Assembly: GCF_004803465.1 (NCBI RefSeq)
Contig: NZ_SRSF01000002.1
Location: 558,001-622,000 of the forward strand
Direction: 5' to 3'
DNA: 64,000 nt
From: Neolewinella litorea
Lineage (GTDB): Bacteria; Bacteroidota; Bacteroidia; Chitinophagales; Saprospiraceae
A model generated the notes under the pieces. The model was not told the origin of the DNA. It saw only the letters and a list, made by a program, of their open reading frames with translations, and did not search any database. The position numbers were made by a program, and so were the translations under genes. How positions within the stretch are numbered: the first letter of the stretch is position 1; the number at the start of each line of letters is the position of its first letter. Below are positions 8,203 through 22,353 of this stretch, piece after piece.

Positions 8203-9150
8203 TTAACGCGACACGGAAACGACCTCATAATCGACGTCCGGACCGGGAGGCGTACCGAAGCGGGCGTTCACGGCGTAGAGTGTGCTGCCCTTGCGGGTCA
8301 CGGTGGTAGGTACCCGAAAATCTGGATCGGTGATGACGTCGGTGATGCGTCCCGAACGGTAATTGGGGCTCAGTTGGATCTCCGCGATCTGGTTGAAGGC
8401 GTTCTGTACCACGTAGAGGGTTTTACCCACCAGCAGGATACCGTCGCCGGCAATGACCGATCCGCCATCCAGGTCGATGGTCTCGGCAACGCCCGTCGCG
8501 GGGTCCACCAGGTAGAGTTCGCCGAAGGAACTGTTCACGACGATGAGGGCATCCCCGTTCGGCGTGGCCTCGATGCCGTTGGCGTTGAATGCATTGGGCT
8601 GGAATTGAAAATCGCCGGAGAGTGGCAGGGTCGCCGTGGCGCCCGTGGGCTGGTCCGAGGGACTCAGCTCGGCCACGTAAAGGTTGGGGGTAAAGGAATC
8701 CGTGAAGTAGACCGCGTCGCGGGTAACGATCACGTCGTTGACGAACCCGCCGCCGAAGTCGAAGGTGGCCACTACCTGCCGGCTGCGCGTATCGAGCACG
8801 AAGGCACCGCCAGTCCCGTTACCGGAAACGTAGAGGTACTGGGTGCGGGGGTCGAAGGCAAGCCCGACCGATATGCCCGATTCGGGCGTGTAGATAACCT
8901 CCCCGGTGCCGGTGCGGAAGTCTCCCCGGTATATTGAGCCGTCGGCCAAAGAACCCACGTAGAAGGTGTTGCCGGTGCCAGCCACGATACCTTCCGGCTG
9001 AAAGCCATCGGGCAGGGCGATAACCTCGGGGAAGGCCTTTCGGAATTCCACCGCCTGACCAGCGGGTTCGAGGGATTCGGATTCGGGGGTACAGGCGGTG
9101 AACAGGGTGGCGATAAAGCAAAGCCAGAGGCAGGGTCGCAGTAGGGTCAT
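8203..9150 (-). CDS. SMP-30/NHL-like beta-propeller lipoprotein
   Basis: A 315-residue product from ATG 9150, chosen because it gives a lipoprotein signal with lipobox LFTAC; a longer frame to 9198 adds 16 polar residues. The mature part contains repeated propeller-like blades (EGIVAGTGNTFYVGSL, GLAFDPRTQYLYVSG, NDVIVTRDAVYFTD, NGIEATPNGDALIVV), as in the SMP-30/gluconolactonase/NHL superfamily. Such proteins often bind calcium and hydrolyse lactones, but many lipoprotein members have no known activity. Its substrate cannot be told from the sequence. It would be anchored to the inner or outer membrane facing the periplasm or surface. Confidence 0.75.
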   Translation of the reverse strand: MTLLRPCLWLCFIATLFTACTPESESLEPAGQAVEFRKAFPEVIALPDGFQPEGIVAGTGNTFYVGSLADGSIYRGDFRTGTGEVIYTPESGISVGLAFDPRTQYLYVSGNGTGGAFVLDTRSRQVVATFDFGGGFVNDVIVTRDAVYFTDSFTPNLYVAELSPSDQPTGATATLPLSGDFQFQPNAFNANGIEATPNGDALIVVNSSFGELYLVDPATGVAETIDLDGGSVIAGDGILLVGKTLYVVQNAFNQIAEIQLSPNYRSGRITDVITDPDFRVPTTVTRKGSTLYAVNARFGTPPGPDVDYEVVSVSR

Positions 9151-9231
9151 GATCGGGGAATATGATGAGGAAAATAACCGCGACGGAGTCGCTGCCAACG
9201 CAACGGGATTACATTTTTAATGTTTTGACTT

Positions 9232-9561
9232 TTAGCCCATTAGCTTCAACAATCGATCAGCGGCCTTCTCAACTTCCGAATAATTCTGTTGGGCGGCCCG
9301 CTGCTTAATGGCAATGAGTCCGGAATGGTGCACACGGCGGAAATCGCCGTAGGGAAAACCGTAATGACTCTTCGTGTCCTTGCCAGCGTCTTCGTGCAGT
9401 CCGAGGTGCCACTCGCCGTACTCCTTCCAGCTGTGGCGCTCTAGGTATCCGTTCTCGTCCTCAGTCGTGGGTTGGGCCTCGCTCCAATCGCTGTCCTTGA
9501 CGTACTGGTTGGCCTTGATGAGTTCCTTAGCCTTGGATTCGGCGCTTTTGTTGAGTTTCAT
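9232..9561 (-). CDS. Small conserved hypothetical protein
   Basis: A 109-residue soluble protein without signal peptide. The C-terminal half has HYGFPYGDFRRVHHSGLIA followed by KQRAAQQ, a pattern I associate with a widespread family of short uncharacterised bacterial and phage proteins. The preceding region is rich in W, H and E. The start ATG 9561 has no competitor. It is monocistronic as far as can be seen, 81 bases from the propeller lipoprotein. No function is proposed. Confidence 0.7.
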   Translation of the reverse strand: MKLNKSAESKAKELIKANQYVKDSDWSEAQPTTEDENGYLERHSWKEYGEWHLGLHEDAGKDTKSHYGFPYGDFRRVHHSGLIAIKQRAAQQNYSEVEKAADRLLKLMG

Positions 9562-9615
9562 AGTGCTTGGGTTTTGCTATCCGAACGCATCATACCGGCC
9601 CCGGTTCCCTTCACT

Positions 9616-10065
9616 TTACTCGATGTCCACGGTGGTGCCGGTACCGGTAAGTTCGAAGGTAGTGGGCAGGTTTTGGTCGTCCAGGTAGGGACTGAGGTCA
9701 AATTGGTAGGTGGCCTCGATGATGGCCTGACAGGTCATTTCATTCTCCCCCACCCCGTCGTCGAAGATTAGCAGGGCCGCAGTTTGTGTAGGATAGCTTT
9801 CCCGCACCGTGCCGTCGGTCCACAAGCGGAGTTGCCAGGCCTGGGCACTGCAGCCCGTGGCGGAGATGGTGACCGTGAGGCAGCTGCCTTCGGCTTCGGC
9901 GGACACAACGCTGAAATTATCGGAGGTGAGGCGGGGAAGGGGGTTGCGCACCTGGATCTCGGTGCCGCAGTCGGTGACGGCCGGGGCCGGTTCGGCTTTC
10001 GATTTGTCGCAGCCGTCCGTGCGCACCAGGGCCAGGAAGAAGAGGGGCAGCAGGATGATTTTCAT
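9616..10065 (-). CDS. Small secreted/lipoprotein, paralogue of 26774-27205
   Basis: A 149-residue product from ATG 10065. This start gives a hydrophobic signal (MKIILLPLFFLALV) ending near a cysteine (DGC), although the lipobox is not canonical because T-D-G precede the cysteine. Conserved features shared with the protein at 26774-27205 are DCGxxIxV near the start of the mature part, GxCLTVxIxAxGC, a LIFDD segment followed by TCQA, and FDLSPYL near the end. Four mature cysteines are conserved between them, suggesting disulfides. A TATCTTTC -7-like element on the minus strand (10185 to 10178) lies about 113 bases upstream. The function is unknown. Confidence 0.7.
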   Translation of the reverse strand: MKIILLPLFFLALVRTDGCDKSKAEPAPAVTDCGTEIQVRNPLPRLTSDNFSVVSAEAEGSCLTVTISATGCSAQAWQLRLWTDGTVRESYPTQTAALLIFDDGVGENEMTCQAIIEATYQFDLSPYLDDQNLPTTFELTGTGTTVDIE

Positions 10066-10233
10066 GGCAGGGTCAGTAAGGGGTAAGGGAATGGGGCTCC
10101 GTAAACTCCCCAGGGTGATGGCGAAACCAACCGGTAGCGGGGGCACCGACGGCATTCACCTAAAATAAGGAATGCCCGAAAGATAGCAGGAGTTTACCCG
10201 GGATGTAGCGTCGACAGGCACCCCTACGCAATT

Positions 10234-10299
10234 CCGTAATCGGGGTACAAACACCCGTAAACCTGGTTACCCTCCCGCTTCGGCACGAGCCTACCTTTG
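10234..10299 (+). promoter_or_regulatory. Two-site direct-repeat operator and -7 box before the barrel protein gene
   Basis: CCGTAATCGGGGTA (10234-10247) and a weaker copy CCGTAAACCTGGTT (10255-10268) are spaced 21 bp start to start. TACCTTTG at 10292-10299 matches the Bacteroidota -7 consensus TAnnTTTG exactly and begins 37 bases after the start of the second site. The same site pair, spacing and offset occur at 12333-12398 and 15407-15472 on the opposite strand. This points to binding by the AraC-type regulator encoded at 12466-13359 (inference). Confidence 0.75.
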
Positions 10300-10322
10300 G
10301 GGAAAAATCACCCCTCCACCGC

Positions 10323-11090
10323 ATGCGGTATCTCTACTTCCTTTGTCTCGCCGCCCTGCCGTTCAGCCTTTTTTCCCAGCAAAGCGATACCACCGACATA
10401 CACCACGAGTTTTCCGGTCGCGTGACGGTCACGCACAACGGCATTTCCATCATCCCCTCCTTCTCCCTGGACGCGCCCGCTCTGATCGTGAATCTCAAGG
10501 TGGGCGGTGACCGCTTTTCTTTCGAGCCCGACCTGCGCATGAGCCTCGACGGCAAACCGTGGTCGATGCTGTTCTGGGCCCGGTACCGTGCCCTGCGGCA
10601 CGAGCGCGTTTCCCTGCGCTTGGGCATCCACCCGGCCCTGAATTTTCGGACGATCACCGTCGACGACGGGCATTCCCAACGCGATTTGCTGGAATCCCGT
10701 CGCTACGTCGCTACGGAAGTGGTGCCCGGCTACCGGGTCAACGACCGCCTAAGCGTAGGAATGTACTACCTGCTCGGCCACGGCTTCGATGCCGGATTGC
10801 GGCGCAGCCACTTCGTGCAGCTCAACGCCGCCGTGACCGGCATTCGCCTCCCCGATGAATTTCTTCTCGACCTGTTTCCCCAGGCCTATTACCTGCGCAC
10901 CGATGCGCTCGACGGCACCTACTTGGCGGGGGGCTGGCGCCTCAGCCGCGCCGGACTATCCTTTGCTCTGAGCGGACTGGTTAACCGGAGCTTGCGCACC
11001 GAGATCGCTCCGGAACGGAAGTGGATCTGGAACGTGGCCCTGGAATGGAGCTTCGGCGGGGAATACGAACTGGTCCGGCCGAGCATCTGA
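10323..11090 (+). CDS. Outer-membrane beta-barrel-like protein
   Basis: A 255-residue product with a signal peptide ending LFSQQ and a succession of amphipathic beta-strands (for example FSFEPDLRMSLDGKPWSMLFWARYRAL). The last residues of the domain, WNVALEWSFGGEYEL, resemble a barrel end, although the protein does not stop on the usual aromatic residue. No characterised family was recognised. The promoter carries the same 21-bp-spaced site pair as the two promoters of the AraC-linked cluster just downstream, so it is likely coregulated with the exported cupin and hydrolase proteins and may mediate transport for that system (inference). Confidence 0.7.
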   Translation: MRYLYFLCLAALPFSLFSQQSDTTDIHHEFSGRVTVTHNGISIIPSFSLDAPALIVNLKVGGDRFSFEPDLRMSLDGKPWSMLFWARYRALRHERVSLRLGIHPALNFRTITVDDGHSQRDLLESRRYVATEVVPGYRVNDRLSVGMYYLLGHGFDAGLRRSHFVQLNAAVTGIRLPDEFLLDLFPQAYYLRTDALDGTYLAGGWRLSRAGLSFALSGLVNRSLRTEIAPERKWIWNVALEWSFGGEYELVRPSI

Positions 11091-11119
11091 GCGACCCGCA
11101 CGGCGCGGGGTTCGGGCAG

Positions 11120-12253
11120 CTACCCCTCCACCACCTCCGCCAGCACCTCCCGGGCAGTCGACGCAGCGTCCGCCCCGGCCGTGTCCTCAATCTGCTGCAG
11201 TACGGCCGATAACTGCTCCGCGGTGAAGCCCAGGTTCAGGGCGATGCCCAGGTGGCCGCGCAGCATGGGTGCCACGCCTTCCATGCTGCTAAGAGCACCG
11301 ATGGTGGCGATCTCCCGCTCGTGGTAAGTCAGCACGTCGCGGCCGAAGATATCGGCGAAGAGGTGCTCCTTCAGGAAGACGTCGATGACCGGGGCGAAGT
11401 CGCCGTAGTCGGAACGCCCTTCCACCGGCCGCCCGATCAGTTCTCCCAGGGTGGCGCGGCCCCGCTCGTAACGGGATACGCTGTCATCTACCTCGCCGGC
11501 TTCGGGACCCATTTCGTCCTGTATGCCCCGCGCTTGCCGGTCCTCCACGGCGGCCATCAGGGTACGCAGTCCCTGTATGCTGCGCGGGAACCCGGTGTAG
11601 GCGTACAGGTGGACGAGCACTTCCTTGCATTCGTTGACGGTGAGTCCCGCATCGAGGGCGTCGCCCAGAGCGGCTTGCAGTCGCTCCAGGTCGCCCAGGG
11701 TAGTAAGCGAAGCCACGGTGGCAATGTGGCGGTAGCGGTCGTCGGTCGATGCCAGGCTGTCGGTGGAGACCCGTTCCACCGCGATGCCTTGCCGGTATTC
11801 TTCGTCGGTTACGGGTTCACCCCAGATTACCCGTCCGTCGGGGTGCTCTTTGGTCATGGCCAGCTGGACGAACCACTGGCTATTGGCCGCCCCGTGCCAG
11901 TGTTCTACGCCGGGGGGGCACTGCACCGTCTCCCCCTTGCGGAGCAGGCGTACCGGACCGCCCCGCTCCTGGTAGTAGCCCAGTCCGTCCAGCGCCAGCA
12001 GCGACTGTCCGGCCGGATGGTGGTGCCAGTTGCTGCGCGCCTTGGGTGCGAAGGTGACGTTGCCCACGGCCACGGGGCGCTGCTCGTCCTCCACGACCAG
12101 CAGCCGCTCTACCCAGGCGGTACCGGTAAAGTTGCCCCCGCTGATCATTTGTCCGGCGGGAAAGACCGTATTGACCTCCGCGGGCGGCAGCTGACCGACC
12201 AGGCCGGCGGTTCCAAAAAGCAGGAGGAAGTAAAGGGGAAGTTTAAGGGTCAT
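11120..12253 (-). CDS. Exported cupin-carboxymuconolactone decarboxylase fusion
   Basis: A 377-residue protein from ATG 12253, where a signal peptide (MTLKLPLYFLLL) begins. Residues about 30-130 form a cupin: WHHHPAGQ and GVEHWH supply the usual metal-binding histidines. Two carboxymuconolactone-decarboxylase/AhpD-like regions follow (about 165-245, with NECKEVLVHLYAYTGFP; about 270-370, with HEREIATIGAL and HLGIALNLGF). CMD proteins act as decarboxylases or peroxidase-like proteins. It is divergent from the AraC regulator gene, and the shared upstream region carries two direct-repeat sites. The cupin half is closely related to that of the cupin-NTF2 protein at 13367-14188. The substrate is unknown. 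Confidence 0.85.
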   Translation of the reverse strand: MTLKLPLYFLLLFGTAGLVGQLPPAEVNTVFPAGQMISGGNFTGTAWVERLLVVEDEQRPVAVGNVTFAPKARSNWHHHPAGQSLLALDGLGYYQERGGPVRLLRKGETVQCPPGVEHWHGAANSQWFVQLAMTKEHPDGRVIWGEPVTDEEYRQGIAVERVSTDSLASTDDRYRHIATVASLTTLGDLERLQAALGDALDAGLTVNECKEVLVHLYAYTGFPRSIQGLRTLMAAVEDRQARGIQDEMGPEAGEVDDSVSRYERGRATLGELIGRPVEGRSDYGDFAPVIDVFLKEHLFADIFGRDVLTYHEREIATIGALSSMEGVAPMLRGHLGIALNLGFTAEQLSAVLQQIEDTAGADAASTAREVLAEVVEG

Positions 12254-12332
12254 AATTTCGTAACAGATTTTGGTGGGGCCATCCCGGCACCCGCGCGCCG
12301 CCGGCAAGTAATGCCGTTAACGGCCTGCCGGG

Positions 12333-12398
12333 TAAAGGTCCACCGGGGGCGGAAGCGCTACCCTACCCGGATTACGGAGATGCCTACCCCGATTACGG
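12333..12398 (-). promoter_or_regulatory. Two-site direct-repeat operator between the cupin-CMD and araC-type genes
   Basis: Read on the minus strand, CCGTAATCGGGGTAGG (12398 to 12383) and CCGTAATCCGGGTAGG (12377 to 12362) differ at one base and are 21 bp apart. GACCTTTA (12340 to 12333), a weak -7 element, begins 37 bases after the start of the second site. This is the same geometry as at 10234-10299 and 15407-15472. The sites are also about 70 bases upstream of the regulator's own ATG, which has TACCTTAG at 12439-12446 as a possible -7 box, so autoregulation is possible. Confidence 0.8.
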
Positions 12399-12465
12399 TT
12401 TCCCCGCAGCAGGGCTGGATCGGCGGAGCGGCAGTTGCTACCTTAGGATAAACAAAGCAGCCGAC

Positions 12466-13359
12466 ATGGAAGAGGTTCTGATCTTCGAGACGATAAAGCA
12501 ATACTGCGCCTTCAACAAGCACGAGACGCAGCACCCCCTGGTGGCCATGATCGACCTCTCCCGGGCCGACCCACGGAAACTGCGGCGGATGTGCTTCGAG
12601 TTCTACGTGGTCTTCCTCAAGGAGGTGAAGTGCGGCGACCTGCGCTACGGCTGCAACAACTACGACTACGACGAGGGTACGCTGGTCTTCCTGGCCCCCA
12701 GCCAGGTGATCGGCCACAACGGCGACGAATACTATCAGCCCCAGGGGCGGGCCCTGGTCTTCCACCCGGATTTCCTGCCGGGCAGCCCCCTGGCCCAGCG
12801 GATGCCCCAGTACTCTTTTTTCTCCTACGAATCCAATGAGGCGCTCCACCTCTCGAGCCGCGAGCGGGAGCTGATCGAAGACTGCCTCGGCAAGATTGCC
12901 ACCGAGCTGAACCAGCTCATCGACCAGCACACCCGCCAGCTGCTGCTCACGAACATCGAGCTGCTGCTCAACTACTGCACCCGCTTCTACGACCGGCAGT
13001 TCATCACCCGCACCACCGCCAACCAGGGGGTGCTGACCCGCTTCGAGAGCCTGTTGAACGACTACTTCCGGTCGGGGCAGGCGGAAAGCGAAGGGCTACC
13101 CTCCGTCAACTACTTCGCCGAGCGGCTGCACCTGTCGGCCAACTACTTCGGCGACCTCATCAAGCGGGAAACGGGTAAATCGCCGCAGGACCACATCCAA
13201 CTCAAGGTCGTCAATCTGGCCAAGGAGCGACTCTTCGACCCCGGGAAGTCGATCTCGGAAGTGGCCTACGACCTCGGCTTCAAGTACCCTCAGCACTTCA
13301 GCCGCATGTTCAAGAAGGTCACCGGCCAGACGCCTAACGCCTACCGGAACGTGAACTAG
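12466..13359 (+). CDS. AraC-family transcriptional regulator
   Basis: A 297-residue protein. An N-terminal sensory region has the beta-rich look of the AraC-binding domain (residues about 20-190). The C-terminal AraC/XylS DNA-binding domain (about 195-297) contains two helix-turn-helix motifs: FAERLHLSANYFGDLIKRETGKSP and ISEVAYDLGFKYPQHFSRMFKKVTGQTP-type signatures are both present. It is divergent from the cupin-CMD gene and convergent with the hydrolase/cupin-NTF2 operon, 7 bases from its stop. The three promoters nearby share a two-site repeat whose 21-bp spacing fits AraC-type binding to direct repeats. It is the obvious candidate regulator of all three. Confidence 0.92.
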   Translation: MEEVLIFETIKQYCAFNKHETQHPLVAMIDLSRADPRKLRRMCFEFYVVFLKEVKCGDLRYGCNNYDYDEGTLVFLAPSQVIGHNGDEYYQPQGRALVFHPDFLPGSPLAQRMPQYSFFSYESNEALHLSSRERELIEDCLGKIATELNQLIDQHTRQLLLTNIELLLNYCTRFYDRQFITRTTANQGVLTRFESLLNDYFRSGQAESEGLPSVNYFAERLHLSANYFGDLIKRETGKSPQDHIQLKVVNLAKERLFDPGKSISEVAYDLGFKYPQHFSRMFKKVTGQTPNAYRNVN

Positions 13360-13366
13360 GGCGCGG

Positions 13367-14188
13367 CTACCGCGACATCAGCCGCGTAAACGACAGGGCC
13401 GCCAGCTTCCACTTGCCGGCGATCTTCTTGTAGACTTCCGTTACCTCGAAGGGGTTGGTCACCTCGTTGCCGCCCACTACCGCGAGCAGGGTGATGCGGT
13501 TCAGTAGCACCGCGGTGTCGTCAATCACCTTCACCGAGGCCTCGTGAATATCGGCCTGCTTGTAGTGGATGCCGCCACTGCGGATGATGTCCACCTCCCG
13601 CTCCTTGCCCCAGCTGCCGCCCATGTGGACGAACATGGCGTCGTCGTGGAAGAGTTCCGCCAGCCGGTCGGCGTCCTGGTCGGCCATCCACTGCCACTTG
13701 TCGCGGCTCAGCTGCAGCAGCTCGGCTTCGGTGGCCGATTGCGCGTTGGCCCCTACGGCCAGGTATTCTTCCTCGGTAACGGCCTCCTTCCACTCCGTCG
13801 GAGCATCGCCGGTGATGGCCAGATAGGTAACGCCCTCATCGGGGGTGGCGGCGTGCCAGTGTTCCACGCCCGGGGCGCACTTAATGGTTTCTCCCTTACG
13901 GACCACCCGCACCGGCTGGTTCCTTTCCTGGTAATATCCCACCCCGTCGGTGATGATGAGTTGCTGCCCCTTCGGGTGGAGGTGCCAATCAAGTTTCGCT
14001 CCCGGCGCGAAAGTGGCTACCGCCAGGTTGTAGTTGAAGTGCTCGTCCGCATCACTCGGGTGGTAGAGCCATACGTCGCCGGTGTGGTGGACGTTCTCCG
14101 CCTTCTCACCGCGGGGAAAGAGGGCGTCAGACTGGGCCGCCAGCGGCGCAGCAGCGAGGAGGAGGATGAGGTACAGGATATGGAGCAT
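13367..14188 (-). CDS. Exported cupin-NTF2/SnoaL-like fusion
   Basis: A 273-residue protein with signal peptide (ending PLAAQ). The cupin domain (about residues 25-140) has WHLHPKGQ and GVEHWH and strongly resembles the cupin of the protein at 11120-12253 (both contain GYYQER and VRKGET or LRKGET). The C-terminal part (about 150-273) looks like the NTF2/SnoaL (DUF4440) fold, with LSRDKWQWMADQDADRLAELF and KWKLAALSF. It is 40 bases downstream of the hydrolase lipoprotein gene on the same strand, so the two probably form one transcript from the promoter near 15407. It is likely a periplasmic small-molecule enzyme; the substrate is unknown. Confidence 0.85.
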   Translation of the reverse strand: MLHILYLILLLAAAPLAAQSDALFPRGEKAENVHHTGDVWLYHPSDADEHFNYNLAVATFAPGAKLDWHLHPKGQQLIITDGVGYYQERNQPVRVVRKGETIKCAPGVEHWHAATPDEGVTYLAITGDAPTEWKEAVTEEEYLAVGANAQSATEAELLQLSRDKWQWMADQDADRLAELFHDDAMFVHMGGSWGKEREVDIIRSGGIHYKQADIHEASVKVIDDTAVLLNRITLLAVVGGNEVTNPFEVTEVYKKIAGKWKLAALSFTRLMSR

Positions 14189-14228
14189 GATCGAATAATT
14201 CAGGTTGGTTTTTTACGGAAAGGCGGGG

Positions 14229-15323
14229 TCAGTCCAGCCCCTTTTCGACCAGCCAGTCGAGCAGCAGTTGGGCTACGGCCTGGTTGTTGAGGTCGGACAT
14301 TGGAAAGTGGGTGTTGCCTTTCAGGCCGCGGTCGGGCAGTTGCACCAGGGTCACGTCGCCCCCGTGGGCGTTGACTACTTCGGTCCACTGGCGCGCCATG
14401 GCCACAGCCGCGCGCCACTGTTCCTGCCCGGGATTCTCCACCGGCGCGTCGGGAATGTAATCCCCGTAGTAGATGACAATCGGAATGCGGGTAAGCCGCT
14501 CGAAGGTTGCCAGGGGTACGCCCCGCGCACGCAGCGTGCCACCTGCGTAATCGATGGGTTCCGGCACCTCGTCTTCCGGGAAGACGAAGTTGCTGCCCGG
14601 TTCGTAGGCGGCGATTCCGCGAATATTGTCGTTCTCCAGAGCGGCCAGCCAGCCCTGTCCGCCGCTGTGCGAGTGCGTCACCAGCACGCCCGCTCCGAGG
14701 GTATCGAAGAGGGCCGAAACCGCCGCCACGTTCAGATCGATGTTCAGCGGGCCGGTATCTGGTGTTATTTGCCGGTAGAACTGGTTCAGGGCCGCGGGGT
14801 CGCGGGAGAACTGTACGCCGGGATAGAATTCGGTCCCCACCCCGAGCCGGAAGATGCCGAACCACAGTTGATCGTCGGTTGCCGCCGCGATGGTCGTGGG
14901 CTCCGTGCTGCGCCCGGCGAGTCCGCGCCGCGGCTGGTCGAGCAGGTAGACCGGAAAGCGGTGGCGCAGGAAGATGGTCTGAAAGCCCTCGCGCCCGTCG
15001 GGGGTCGACTGCCAGGTCCGCATCGACTGTCCGTAGCCGTGCCAGAACACCAGCGGCAGTTCCCGGGCCCGTACCGGCACCTGGTAGAATACCGCGGCGT
15101 GGTCGCCGTGCAGGGTTTGTCCGGCGGTAGATTGGTTGCCCGGATTGAAGGCCCCGTGCGCGATGGGGTCGAAGGTGCCCGGACTGGTCTTCACGCTACC
15201 GCCGACGGTAAAACTTCCTTGCTCGGCCAGGGCGATCCCGCCCTCGGGGGTACCGGATCGTGGGCTTACGCAGGCGGTCAGGGTCAGCAACAGGCCGAGG
15301 AGTGGAACAAAGGTTTTTCGCAT
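14229..15323 (-). CDS. Alpha/beta-hydrolase lipoprotein
   Basis: A 364-residue product with a lipoprotein signal (lipobox LTAC, cysteine 18). The alpha/beta-hydrolase core shows the oxyanion-loop motif FWHGYGQS (about residues 93-100), a nucleophile elbow in THSHSGGQG (serine about 220) and a late histidine in GNTHFP (about 340). The glutamate in AAYEPGS could be the acid. It resembles secreted esterases of this fold. It is first in an operon with the cupin-NTF2 gene. Its promoter region carries the site pair shared with two neighbouring promoters, placing it in the presumed AraC-type regulon. Confidence 0.85.
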   Translation of the reverse strand: MRKTFVPLLGLLLTLTACVSPRSGTPEGGIALAEQGSFTVGGSVKTSPGTFDPIAHGAFNPGNQSTAGQTLHGDHAAVFYQVPVRARELPLVFWHGYGQSMRTWQSTPDGREGFQTIFLRHRFPVYLLDQPRRGLAGRSTEPTTIAAATDDQLWFGIFRLGVGTEFYPGVQFSRDPAALNQFYRQITPDTGPLNIDLNVAAVSALFDTLGAGVLVTHSHSGGQGWLAALENDNIRGIAAYEPGSNFVFPEDEVPEPIDYAGGTLRARGVPLATFERLTRIPIVIYYGDYIPDAPVENPGQEQWRAAVAMARQWTEVVNAHGGDVTLVQLPDRGLKGNTHFPMSDLNNQAVAQLLLDWLVEKGLD

Positions 15324-15406
15324 GTCGTAGTCTGGTTCGCATACCGAAAAGGGGGCGCTACCGCAGGTGCCGTACCGCTTCGGTAATGCAGCGTCAGTCA
15401 GTCCCG

Positions 15407-15472
15407 CAAAGTTCGTTCGCTTCAGCCTACGGTCGCCTACCCCGATTACGGAAAGGACAACCCGGTTTACCG
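15407..15472 (-). promoter_or_regulatory. Two-site direct-repeat operator before the hydrolase operon
   Basis: On the minus strand, CGGTAAACCGGGTTGT (15472 to 15457) precedes CCGTAATCGGGGTAGG (15451 to 15436) by 21 bp. The latter is identical over 16 bases to the distal site at 12398-12383. GAACTTTG (15414 to 15407), one mismatch from TAnnTTTG, starts 37 bases after the start of the proximal site, as at the other two promoters. The hydrolase ATG is at 15323. Confidence 0.75.
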
Positions 15473-19632: not shown

Positions 19633-19785
19633 AGCACGGTATTTGGCGGCCTAACGGGAAAATGTGGGAGTTGGGTTCAATTTTGCCGGGTGGACCCTTC
19701 CAAGCCGAGGGCCGGGCCCCTCACATGAACCGATGAAAATTAGTTGCGTCATTCAGCTATCTTGGCGGGAACCACCCGCCCCAGC

Positions 19786-22353
19786 TTGCGTCTCCGATTC
19801 TTCATCCTCCTCCTCATTCCGGTGTTGCTGGGAGTAGCCTGCTCGGCTACGACTGAGCGTATCCCGCTGTCCCCGTTCGAGACGGAAATAGCTGCCGGAG
19901 TAGAGCAACTGGCGGCTGACTACACCGCCGGTCGCCTGCCCGAAGCCCTGGCCACCGCCCGAAGCCTGAATTACCGCCTGGAGACAACGCCCGCGCCCGT
20001 CCGGGATGAACTGCGGGTACCGGTAGACCAGTACCTGGCCATGCTCCATTATCACTGGCAGCAGCACGTGGATTCCCTGCAATACTATTCGCGGCGGGCC
20101 GCGCAACGACTCCCCGAAGATCCGGCCCTGGATACCCGGGTGCGTCAGTTGCTCTGCCAGGCCTACGCCACTTTCCACGCCTGGAGCTGGCTGGAGGTGC
20201 AGCTGACCACGCGTTACGCACGCCGCTTGCAGGAGCGCGCCGGACAGGACCGCAGCGCCATCTACGCCGAACTGCTGGTGGTGGAAGGTCAGGCCCTGAA
20301 ACAGTACGCCGACCGCCAACCCGCGGACGAGCGACCTCCACTGTACCACCAAAGCGAGGCGCTGCTGCGGGAGGCCTGGGAACGATACCGCGACCTGGAT
20401 TCCCCCTGGGCCTCCACGGCGGTGGAGAACCTCATCATCGTATCCGTCCGCAGTCCGGAAAATGACCCCCAGCTTCCGGCCCTCATCGACAGCTTCCGCG
20501 CCATGGTCGGCCCCGCGCCCCGCCCTTCCGGGTCGGCCGAACGACTGCTCGGTTACTGGCACGCCTCCCGCGGGCGGGCCGACAGCGCCGCCGCCTACTA
20601 CCGGGCCGTCCTCGAACAACCGGCCTCCTTTTCCAACCACTACGCCGACGAGGCCCGCTACATGCTCATCGAAGGTGCCTTGCAAAACGAGGACTACCAC
20701 CAAGCCTTCGCCCTTACCCTCGCCGACCAGCACCAGCGGGGGTGCTGCCCCTCCGGCGGCGGCGACCCGGCGCCCCTGACCTGCCTGGAAAAACTGGAAT
20801 GCATCTACCACCTCACGGCCCTGGCCGAAATTCACCTGCAGCGCTACGAAAGCCGGGGCGGCAGCGCTGACCTGGATTCGGCGGCCGCATATGTACAGAC
20901 CTCCCTGGAGCGCTACGAAAGCGCCTTTGTAAGCGAAAAGGAAGAAGGCATCCTCAACCAGAGCCTCACCCTGGGCGACCGGGTAATCAACACCGCCCTG
21001 CGCACCGCCGCCTACCGGGCCCGCGCCACCCCCTCGCCGGAGCACCTGAACGCCCTCTTCCAGGCCATGGAAAAGGGGAAGACCTTCCTGCTAACCCGCG
21101 ATCTCCTGCAGATCGCCGGGGCACGCGCGGAACTCACCGCGGCGGACAGCCTCCGCCAGTTACGTACCGCCATCGACCTGATCCAGAAAAACTTTGCCCG
21201 CGACCTGAGCGTCACCGAGACCACCCTGGCGGAATACCAGCTATTGCTGCGCCGGGAAAAGGCACTGCTGGCCCAGAACCAAACCACCAGGTCGGAAGCC
21301 CTGCACGGTGTGACGCGGGGCTACGGGGTGAGTTCGCTCCGCGACGTCCAGCAAGCGTTGACCGACCAGCAGGCCCTCCTGGAGTTTGCCGAATCCGCCG
21401 CGGGCCTGCACGCCTTCTACGTAGACCGTGATACCACGCTGTCCTACCTGATTGCAGGTTCCGCGGTGGAGAAGGCCGACCAGCTGATAGCCCAGCTGGT
21501 GGGTGACCAGCGCAGCATCTCCCCCCGTTTTGATTCCCTCGCCCACGACCTGTATCGCAGCCTGTTGCTGCCCGCTGCCGAAGCGCTGCGCCGCAGGGAA
21601 GAACTGTTAATCGTGCCCACCGCCGCCCTGGCGTCACTGCCGTTTGCCGCATTGCTCCCGCGCCCCGCCGCCCCGGATTCCTCCGACGCCCGCGCATATC
21701 TGGCCGACGACCACCTGATCCGGTACCTGCCCAGTTGGCGAACGGAAGTGCAGCACCGCCGCCTGCGCGTACCGCTCAACGCAACACCCCGCCTCGGCGT
21801 GATCACCTACCCCGCCCTGCGGCCCTACTTCGATCCGCTGAACACCCTGCTAGGCGGCCACTCCGCCGTCAGTACCACTTTCCTGCCCCCGGCACCCAGC
21901 AGTCCGACTCCCTTTGCCTCGCGCACGGCCGACTACGACTGGTTGCAACTCTCCCTGCACGCGGGCGGCGACCAGCAATCGCTGAATGAGAACTACCTCT
22001 ACCTGAGCCCCACGGACAGTCTGAACGGACTGCAGATCGGCGAATACCCCCTGGCACCCCGCCTCGTAGTGCTCGCTGCCTGTTCCTCCTCCCTGGGCTA
22101 CACCTACAAACGCGAGGGCACCTTCAGTCTGCGGCGCAGTTTCCACCGGGCCGGGGTACCGGACGTGGTCTCTTCCCTCTACGACATTCCGGCGGCGGCT
22201 ACCGCCGTATTGCTGCGCGAATTCTACGCCGCCCTGCTGTCCGGCGCGTCTCCGGCCACCGCCCTGAACCGCGCCCAGCGCAAGTGCCGCTCCGGCGCCC
22301 TCGGCGCGCGCTACACCTTGCCCTATTATTGGGCCGGCCTGACGGTGAGCTAA
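19786..22353 (+). CDS. CHAT-domain (caspase-like) lipoprotein with helical repeat region
   Basis: About 855 residues. I chose TTG 19786 because it gives a compact lipoprotein signal (MRLRFFILLLIPVLLGVAC). An earlier TTG at 19744 lies upstream of a -7-like TATCTTGG (19757-19764), and no ATG is available. The middle (about residues 40-500) is helical and TPR-like. The C-terminal CHAT domain contains the catalytic pair: histidine in SLHAGGD (about residue 724) and cysteine in LAACSSSLG (about 766). CHAT proteases are clan CD peptidases. In Bacteroidota many occur as membrane-anchored TPR-CHAT proteins of unknown role. The stop overlaps the convergent gene by four bases. Confidence 0.85.
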   Translation: MRLRFFILLLIPVLLGVACSATTERIPLSPFETEIAAGVEQLAADYTAGRLPEALATARSLNYRLETTPAPVRDELRVPVDQYLAMLHYHWQQHVDSLQYYSRRAAQRLPEDPALDTRVRQLLCQAYATFHAWSWLEVQLTTRYARRLQERAGQDRSAIYAELLVVEGQALKQYADRQPADERPPLYHQSEALLREAWERYRDLDSPWASTAVENLIIVSVRSPENDPQLPALIDSFRAMVGPAPRPSGSAERLLGYWHASRGRADSAAAYYRAVLEQPASFSNHYADEARYMLIEGALQNEDYHQAFALTLADQHQRGCCPSGGGDPAPLTCLEKLECIYHLTALAEIHLQRYESRGGSADLDSAAAYVQTSLERYESAFVSEKEEGILNQSLTLGDRVINTALRTAAYRARATPSPEHLNALFQAMEKGKTFLLTRDLLQIAGARAELTAADSLRQLRTAIDLIQKNFARDLSVTETTLAEYQLLLRREKALLAQNQTTRSEALHGVTRGYGVSSLRDVQQALTDQQALLEFAESAAGLHAFYVDRDTTLSYLIAGSAVEKADQLIAQLVGDQRSISPRFDSLAHDLYRSLLLPAAEALRRREELLIVPTAALASLPFAALLPRPAAPDSSDARAYLADDHLIRYLPSWRTEVQHRRLRVPLNATPRLGVITYPALRPYFDPLNTLLGGHSAVSTTFLPPAPSSPTPFASRTADYDWLQLSLHAGGDQQSLNENYLYLSPTDSLNGLQIGEYPLAPRLVVLAACSSSLGYTYKREGTFSLRRSFHRAGVPDVVSSLYDIPAAATAVLLREFYAALLSGASPATALNRAQRKCRSGALGARYTLPYYWAGLTVS

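Follow-up and report, generated by a model that had tools for sequence, protein, structure and literature searches.

Predicted operators of an AraC-type regulator, in fixed phase with -7 promoter boxes, in Neolewinella litorea and other Bacteroidota

Here we report the analysis of paired direct repeats, and of an AraC-type regulator gene in their midst, in a stretch of the genome of Neolewinella litorea (Bacteroidota; Saprospiraceae). The window, which means the whole stretch of 64,000 nucleotides that was analysed, corresponds to C12:558001-622000 of the genome designated G000 (4.4 Mb, 39 contigs, 98.8% complete). Judged from sequence comparison, the pairs are very probably the operators of the AraC-type protein encoded at positions 12466-13359, which would act as a class II activator with a central operator between divergent genes.

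Locus and sequence features

The features of the locus are listed below by window position; coordinates of minus-strand sites descend.

10234-10249, plus strand: distal half-site of the barrel promoter, CCGTAATCGGGGTACA, read directly
10255-10270, plus strand: proximal half-site of the barrel promoter, CCGTAAACCTGGTTAC, starting 21 bp past the distal start
10292-10299, plus strand: -7 box of the barrel gene, TACCTTTG, 37 nt past the proximal start
10323..11090, plus strand: target 1, outer-membrane beta-barrel of 255 amino acids with 12 predicted strands and a signal-like N-terminus (by eye)
11120..12253, minus strand: target 2, cupin-CMD fusion (Pfam CMD and Cupin_2) with a signal-like sequence (by eye)
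12340-12333, minus strand: -7 box of the cupin-CMD gene, GACCTTTA, 37 nt past the proximal start
12377-12362, minus strand: proximal half-site of the cupin-CMD promoter, CCGTAATCCGGGTAGG, read directly
12398-12383, minus strand: distal half-site of the cupin-CMD promoter, CCGTAATCGGGGTAGG, in the operator between the divergent genes
12439-12446, plus strand: -7-like box of the regulator's own promoter, TACCTTAG, 40 nt beyond the outer edge of the distal site
12466..13359, plus strand: AraC-type regulator of 297 amino acids (HTH_18 and HTH_AraC)
13367..14188, minus strand: target 3b, cupin-NTF2 protein (DUF4440/SnoaL) with a signal-like sequence (by eye), second gene after the hydrolase promoter
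14229..15323, minus strand: target 3a, alpha/beta-hydrolase with a lipoprotein-like N-terminus (by eye)
15414-15407, minus strand: -7 box of the hydrolase operon, GAACTTTG, 37 nt past the proximal start
15451-15436, minus strand: proximal half-site of the hydrolase promoter, CCGTAATCGGGGTAGG, with the same letters as the cupin-CMD distal site
15472-15457, minus strand: distal half-site of the hydrolase promoter, CGGTAAACCGGGTTGT, read directly

A preliminary description of this DNA had reported six related sites arranged as three direct-repeat pairs, with a -7-like box beginning exactly 37 nt after the start of each proximal site. Both statements were confirmed in all three promoters, where the start-to-start distance within the pairs is 21 bp. 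The half-site consensus CSGTAAWCNNGGTW has six perfect matches in the window, which are exactly the six reported sites, and 21 nt lie between the end of the proximal half-site and the -7 box. On the regulator side of the central operator, the -7-like box is found at 40 and the start of the regulator gene at 67. Gene order and strand suggest that the hydrolase and cupin-NTF2 genes form one operon.

Occurrence in the genome

A paired pattern was derived from the three window pairs, so that only a fourth genomic place counts as an independent success. About 1e-6 occurrences of this pattern are expected from base composition in the 4.4-Mb genome, versus four that were found without mismatch, and the reversed control pattern had no match in the genome at up to 3 mismatches. 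Reversed sequence served as the control in the genome, genus and locus scans, and shuffles in one analysis only. At up to 3 mismatches the pattern occurred at five places, namely the three window pairs, a perfect fourth pair and one place on contig C23 (3 mismatches) without a -7 box at the expected position, which was judged to be a chance match. Chance as the origin of the window repeats is ruled out by the low expectation, the empty reversed control and the count of exactly six perfect half-sites.

C12:501749-501783, minus strand: fourth pair, perfect match to the paired pattern

The fourth pair precedes the gene of a DUF4440/SnoaL protein of 149 amino acids, at a distance of 121 nt measured from its start codon to the pair's first base. 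This stand-alone NTF2-like protein shares 55% identity over 120 residues with the NTF2 half of the window cupin-NTF2 protein, and its gene is located about 69 kb from the regulator. The promoter has the box TAACTTGT at offset 37, which fits the TAnnTTGY variant of the -7 element and not TAnnTTTG.

Model R1, a 37-column profile built from 21 pairs, scored the four genomic pairs at 35.9, 35.0, 28.4 and 25.9 bits, and the next match at 15.4 bits; all four pairs belong to the training set, so that the scores arise partly by construction, while the gap to the next match is still informative. All four pairs are intergenic, with genes called from open reading frames. With four copies in the genome and a gap of 25.9 versus 15.4 bits, the pair is not widespread at unrelated genes.

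A DJ-1/PfpI-like gene (by eye; L036 4931-5701, minus strand) lies directly upstream of the fourth operator and outside the predicted transcript, and a gene of this kind also occurs near the NTF2 gene in genomes G016 and G017. Look-alikes of an epimerase of the TIGR01777 type (L036 1363-2358, minus strand) and of GH3-type proteins (L036 5852-7393, minus strand) were seen by eye near the same operator.

Conservation within the genus

At E ≤ 0.05, model R1 had 29 matches in 13 of the 21 Neolewinella genomes, and 19 of these matches were training pairs. Reading of the downstream genes placed 28 of the 29 matches before a recurring gene set, which comprised genes for cupin-CMD proteins (6), barrels (6), iron-sulfur/XDH-type proteins (5, of which one, in G006, rests on a long frame beginning at +483), hydrolases (3), NTF2 proteins (3), an exported protein named CBM9-like by eye (2) and the regulator itself (3). 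Of the 10 matches on which the model had not been trained, 9 precede recurring genes, and one of these nine repeats a window pair letter for letter. The match in G020 lies within a long reading frame and was taken as chance.

The pair is conserved in orthologous promoters, including those on contigs other than that of the regulator, as found for the barrel orthologues of G016 (C18), G018 (C378) and G004 (C34) and for the NTF2 orthologue of G017 (C1). The NTF2 orthologue of G016, the genome with the closest regulator relative found (96% identity), also kept its pair at a distance of about 68 kb from the regulator. The phase of the -7 box was examined in 31 pairs, whose mean match to TAnnTTTG was 4.26 of 6 at offset 37 versus 1.47 (sd 0.24) at the background offsets (16 to 109 except 35-37); the list is mildly biased in that it includes two weak pairs (G006 hydrolase, G007) already known to carry a -7 box. 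Chance matches, two weak G004 pairs and the distant pairs of G055, G038, G022 and G024 were left out of it. Both types of -7 box, TAnnTTTG and TAnnTTGY, occur at the operators.

Two loci differ in organization. In G009, the cupin-CMD and NTF2 proteins are fused into one protein of 513 amino acids, and the target set with two operators occupies L113 13086-18176. The locus of G007 (L115, about 9040-10250) is decayed, with broken frames of the AraC, cupin-CMD and NTF2 genes and one operator with GACCTTTG left.

Conservation across Bacteroidota

A scan of named genomes yielded at least 589 stretches with relatives of the regulator, of which the best 80 (57-96% identity) were used. They span Sphingobacterium, Pedobacter, Mucilaginibacter, Chitinophaga, Dyadobacter, Flavobacterium, Galbibacter and others; without the two Neolewinella loci (L140, L141), 78 loci with a few near-duplicates (such as L178/L179 and L208/L217) remained. 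In 65 of the 78 loci, the best match that a matrix of the 21 family pairs alone had in the entire locus lay on the opposite strand and no more than 130 nt upstream of the regulator; with the reversed control, this was so in none of the 78. In 53 of the 65 loci, the -7 box, which is not part of the matrix, matched 5 or all 6 positions at offset 37.

A matrix refined on the same loci scored above 30 in 73 of the 78, with a control maximum of 11.0, and gave the operator consensus CAGTAATATTGGTAGG-N5-CAGTAATCTGTATACC for the other genera. In this refined set, the target-side -7 box matched at least 5 of 6 positions at offset 37 in 59 of 73 loci and at offset 36 in 7. On the regulator side, counted from the outer edge of the distal site, the box stands at 39 nt in 52 of 71 loci and at 40 nt in 9. 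The distance to the regulator start was 64-70 nt in 57 of the 71. None of the counts in the 65-, 73- and 71-locus sets involved selection on the -7 box. With -7 boxes at near-fixed distances on either side, the operator is in phase with each of the two divergent promoters. Target-side boxes begin with T in only 3 of 73 loci, regulator-side boxes in 61 of 71. Among the 71 loci, none of TTG, TTTG and TTGA was prominent (8 or more loci) at a -33 distance on the regulator side; the TTG seen at offset 1-2 is one that touches the distal site.

The preliminary description had proposed a probable AraC-type regulon and had noted that the regulator gene lies among the three targets. Two findings that would have spoken against it, wide occurrence of the pair at unrelated genes and lack of conservation in orthologous promoters, were looked for and not seen. 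This proposal has gained from the recurring target set in the genus and from the pair beside the regulator in most of the 78 loci of other genera, and the link of the pairs to the AraC-type protein is now supported by sequence comparison much more strongly than by proximity.

Seven stretches with distant paralogues (40-46% identity) were also searched; five had no pair above control, and two (G024, G033) had a related pair. Pairs with a GGATA variant of box B were seen in L054 (G024; 11854, minus strand) and, both in G033, in L093 (2996, plus strand) and L094 (1197, minus strand). They precede SDR or alpha/beta-hydrolase genes, and L054 and L093 also hold distant AraC paralogues. The GGATA pairs suggest a wider family of related operators.

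Regulator and target proteins

The C-terminus of the regulator matched HTH_18 (78.9 bits) and HTH_AraC (51.6 bits), both above the cut-offs, and the N-terminal half had no Pfam match. In the structure model (mean predicted local distance difference test score, pLDDT, 81), the N-terminal domain resembled the regulatory domain of RhaR (5u93_B; Z 16.2, root-mean-square deviation 3.0 A, 159 residues aligned) and that of AraC (2arc_B; Z 11.6, 3.7 A, 151 residues aligned), and the C-terminal domain matched the DNA-binding domains of AraC, MarA and SoxS. By predicted structure only, the N-terminus would thus be an AraC/RhaR-like (cupin-like) regulatory domain. With its C-terminus of two helix-turn-helix motifs, its predicted AraC-type N-terminal domain, and a probable operator of direct repeats at about 21 bp in class II position, the protein has the features of the AraC/XylS family. 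An assignment to HpaA (NCBIfam TIGR02297) was rejected at 56.9 bits versus a cut-off of 274.65.

Among the targets, the barrel protein had no match in Pfam and NCBIfam at E 0.001. Its predicted structure (mean pLDDT 81.7, 12 strands) had outer-membrane barrels, including Tsx, KdgM, NanC and a COG4313 channel, as Foldseek neighbours at template modelling scores of about 0.5; the model points to an outer-membrane barrel. The hydrolase scored 25.8 bits with Abhydrolase_6, just under the Pfam cut-off of 26.3. The cupin half of the cupin-CMD protein was considered as an (R)-mandelonitrile lyase (NCBIfam NF049940) and rejected at 127.8 bits, under the cut-off of 140.

Targets in other genera and possible function

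Relatives of the window targets were counted over the best 80 loci (tblastn, E 1e-15, the two Neolewinella loci included). The cupin-CMD protein has relatives in 45 of these loci, the stand-alone NTF2 protein in 36 and the hydrolase in 28. The targets are partly scattered in Neolewinella and often clustered behind the regulator elsewhere. The regulon predicted for the window genome has four promoters and five products, all with signal-like or lipoprotein-like N-termini (by eye), and its role is therefore likely to be the envelope handling of a small, perhaps reactive or aromatic-type compound.

A different function under the same operator model, the detoxification of reactive carbonyls (aldehydes) in the manner of E. 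coli YqhC and yqhD-dkgA, is a possibility that we hold tentatively, at somewhat less than even confidence. In 45 of the 73 loci outside the genus, the gene next after the operator encodes an aldo/keto reductase (27 of a kind with 384 amino acids, by eye, and 18 DkgA-like, of which one was checked with Pfam), the commonest first target there. The other first genes encode a cupin or cupin-NTF2 protein (9), a CMD protein (4), a relative of the window hydrolase (4; 54-57% identity), a DLH-type hydrolase (2), and a barrel, a carboxylesterase, an SDR, an XdhC and an MFS transporter (one each); four loci had no credible frame. The iron-sulfur XDH-type subunits among the genus targets and the DJ-1-like gene adjoining the fourth operator also favour this function. 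Against it, the regulon of the window genome includes no such reductase and its products look exported, and the hydrolases, cupins and channel would fit the uptake and breakdown of a compound equally well.

Proposed mechanism and alternatives

In the proposed mechanism, one regulator subunit would bind each half-site of 16-18 bp (box A GTAA, box B GGTA), and the two half-sites, two helical turns apart, would lie on the same face of the DNA. The proximal half-site would cover the place of the -33 element, and the bound dimer, presumably under the control of an inducer, would retain RNA polymerase at promoters lacking a conserved -33 element, which corresponds to class II activation. The operator lies between the regulator gene and a divergent main target, and the regulator's own gene is probably affected too because the operator is at a near-fixed distance from both promoters. 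In G000, the regulon would comprise the cupin-CMD protein, the hydrolase with the cupin-NTF2 protein, the outer-membrane barrel and the stand-alone NTF2-like protein.

Several results weigh against this account. The degenerate pattern at up to 2 mismatches had 76 matches in 60 genomes versus 78 for the reversed control (genus 39 versus 17; the other 39 genomes 37 versus 61), and alone it has no specificity. Seven of the 31 family pairs score below 4 of 6 at exactly offset 37. In the spacing test, which covered up to 800 nt upstream of the regulator, 21 bp was preferred in 71 of the 78 loci and 20 bp in 4, a preference that is partly by construction because the half matrices were learned at 21 bp; the other three loci (L163, L190, L206) had no preferred pair at 20-21 bp in that range. 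L190 and L206 have a pair downstream of the regulator instead, and in L183 the best-scoring pair lies at a distance of 4.3 kb. Every one of the 11 genomes that encode an orthologue of the regulator (at least 49% identity) has pairs, as do 2 of the 10 others (G009, G020; Fisher p 2e-4), a co-occurrence that is partly circular in that most training pairs were found beside the regulator. One of these two genomes, G009 (98% complete), has kept pairs and targets, and an AraC orthologue was not detected in it. Finally, the choice of activation over repression is drawn solely from the geometry.

The inspection of degenerate-pattern matches covered the genomes of interest and left out, among others, the places in G001, G005, G012, G013 and G056 and the rest of G047. 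Matches in G002 (C30, C64), G014 (C94), G018 (C580), G003, G037 and G046 had no in-phase -7 box and were attributed to chance, and the C12 stretch of G047 had no match above the reporting threshold.

Repression of these promoters by the regulator is unlikely. The proximal site overlaps the -33 position, and the bound protein could shut out the polymerase. The target promoters, however, lack a conserved -33 element, and their -7 box is mostly without its first T, in contrast to the near-consensus box on the regulator side, and the pairs are rigidly phased to the -7 box. Such rigid phasing is typical for class II activators of the AraC family.

It is still less probable that the operators belong to another regulator and that the AraC gene is merely adjacent. 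Such an arrangement would explain G009, in which two good pairs with -7 boxes stand before hydrolase and barrel genes and no AraC orthologue was detected. Against it, a pair is found 56-85 nt upstream of the AraC gene in 69 of the 78 loci of other genera, the half-site and the 21-bp spacing are of the AraC-family type, and five of the seven distant-paralogue stretches have no pair above control and the other two a variant pair. The distribution over genomes with and without the orthologue, partly circular as it is, points in the same direction, and the G020 match is intragenic. A mobile or non-regulatory repeat family located near these genes by chance would account for near-identical short repeats recurring in one locus, but can practically be dismissed, as there are only four pairs in the genome, all of them intergenic, the similarity takes in the half-sites and a portion of the spacer between them but not the 21 nt that lead to the -7 box, and orthologous genes located on other contigs have kept their pair.

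Comparison with known systems

E. coli AraC binds 17-bp half-sites at a distance of 21 bp at araI1-araI2. The regulator described here is likewise predicted to be a two-domain protein with an AraC-like regulatory domain, but the identity over the aligned regulatory domain is only 11%, and no sugar-use operon was seen among the window targets.

In XylS/Pm of Pseudomonas putida, box A (TGCA) and box B (GGTA) are separated by 6 bp (PMC5481539). The likeness extends to two direct-repeat half-sites, the GGTA of box B and two recognition helices (PMC5481539), and to the overlap of the activator and polymerase sites (by a title in the reference list of PMC5481539). The system here differs in a box A of GTAA, a distance of 4 bp between the boxes, a -7 promoter of the Bacteroidota in place of a -10 promoter, and other target genes. 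An identification of the regulator as a XylS orthologue was rejected on the pattern GTAA-4 bp-GGTA versus TGCA-6 bp-GGTA.

E. coli YqhC is also an AraC-type regulator of aldo/keto reductase genes that is encoded beside its targets, and a SoxS-like sequence and a 24-bp palindrome are described for the yqhD promoter (PMC8262776, PMC6115493). The operator here is instead a 21-bp direct repeat, and the other target families differ. For Flavobacterium psychrophilum, the -7 consensus TAnnTTTG and the variant TAnnTTGY have been reported (PMC9723704). The target-side boxes of the other genera depart from this sigma-A element of the Bacteroidota in their mostly missing first T.

The geometry as a whole, with direct repeats at 21 bp, a proximal site that ends 21 nt short of a weakened -7 box, and no conserved -33 element, corresponds to the class II pattern of an AraC/XylS-type dimer. 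What gives the proposed system its value is that it recurs across the phylum and is predictive. We give about an even chance to the broader proposal of a unit found throughout the Bacteroidota, in which one AraC-type protein and one operator, rigidly phased to two divergent promoters with a weakened target-side -7 box ([G/C]AnnTTTG, no conserved -33 element), would control an envelope pathway for an unrecognised small molecule, with genes clustered in many genera and linked by operators in Neolewinella.

To our knowledge, few pairs of transcription factor and operator are established in the Bacteroidota outside sugar use. A literature search on the regulator with its targets or host group, and on the operator strings, found no description of the system, with most subscription papers outside its reach; the one paper matched by an operator string deals with braconid wasps and is unrelated. 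As an operator code, the regulator/operator pair would allow regulons to be predicted in many genera, and it would connect genes of unknown role, for hydrolases, cupins, CMD and NTF2 proteins, reductases and channels, in a single testable pathway. It would also represent a clean design of an activator-dependent promoter in a phylum with its own promoter consensus.

Neighbouring gene

Elsewhere in the window (19744-22353, plus strand), a long protein with tetratricopeptide repeats (TPR) and a CHAT-like part (by eye) is encoded, apparently outside the regulon.

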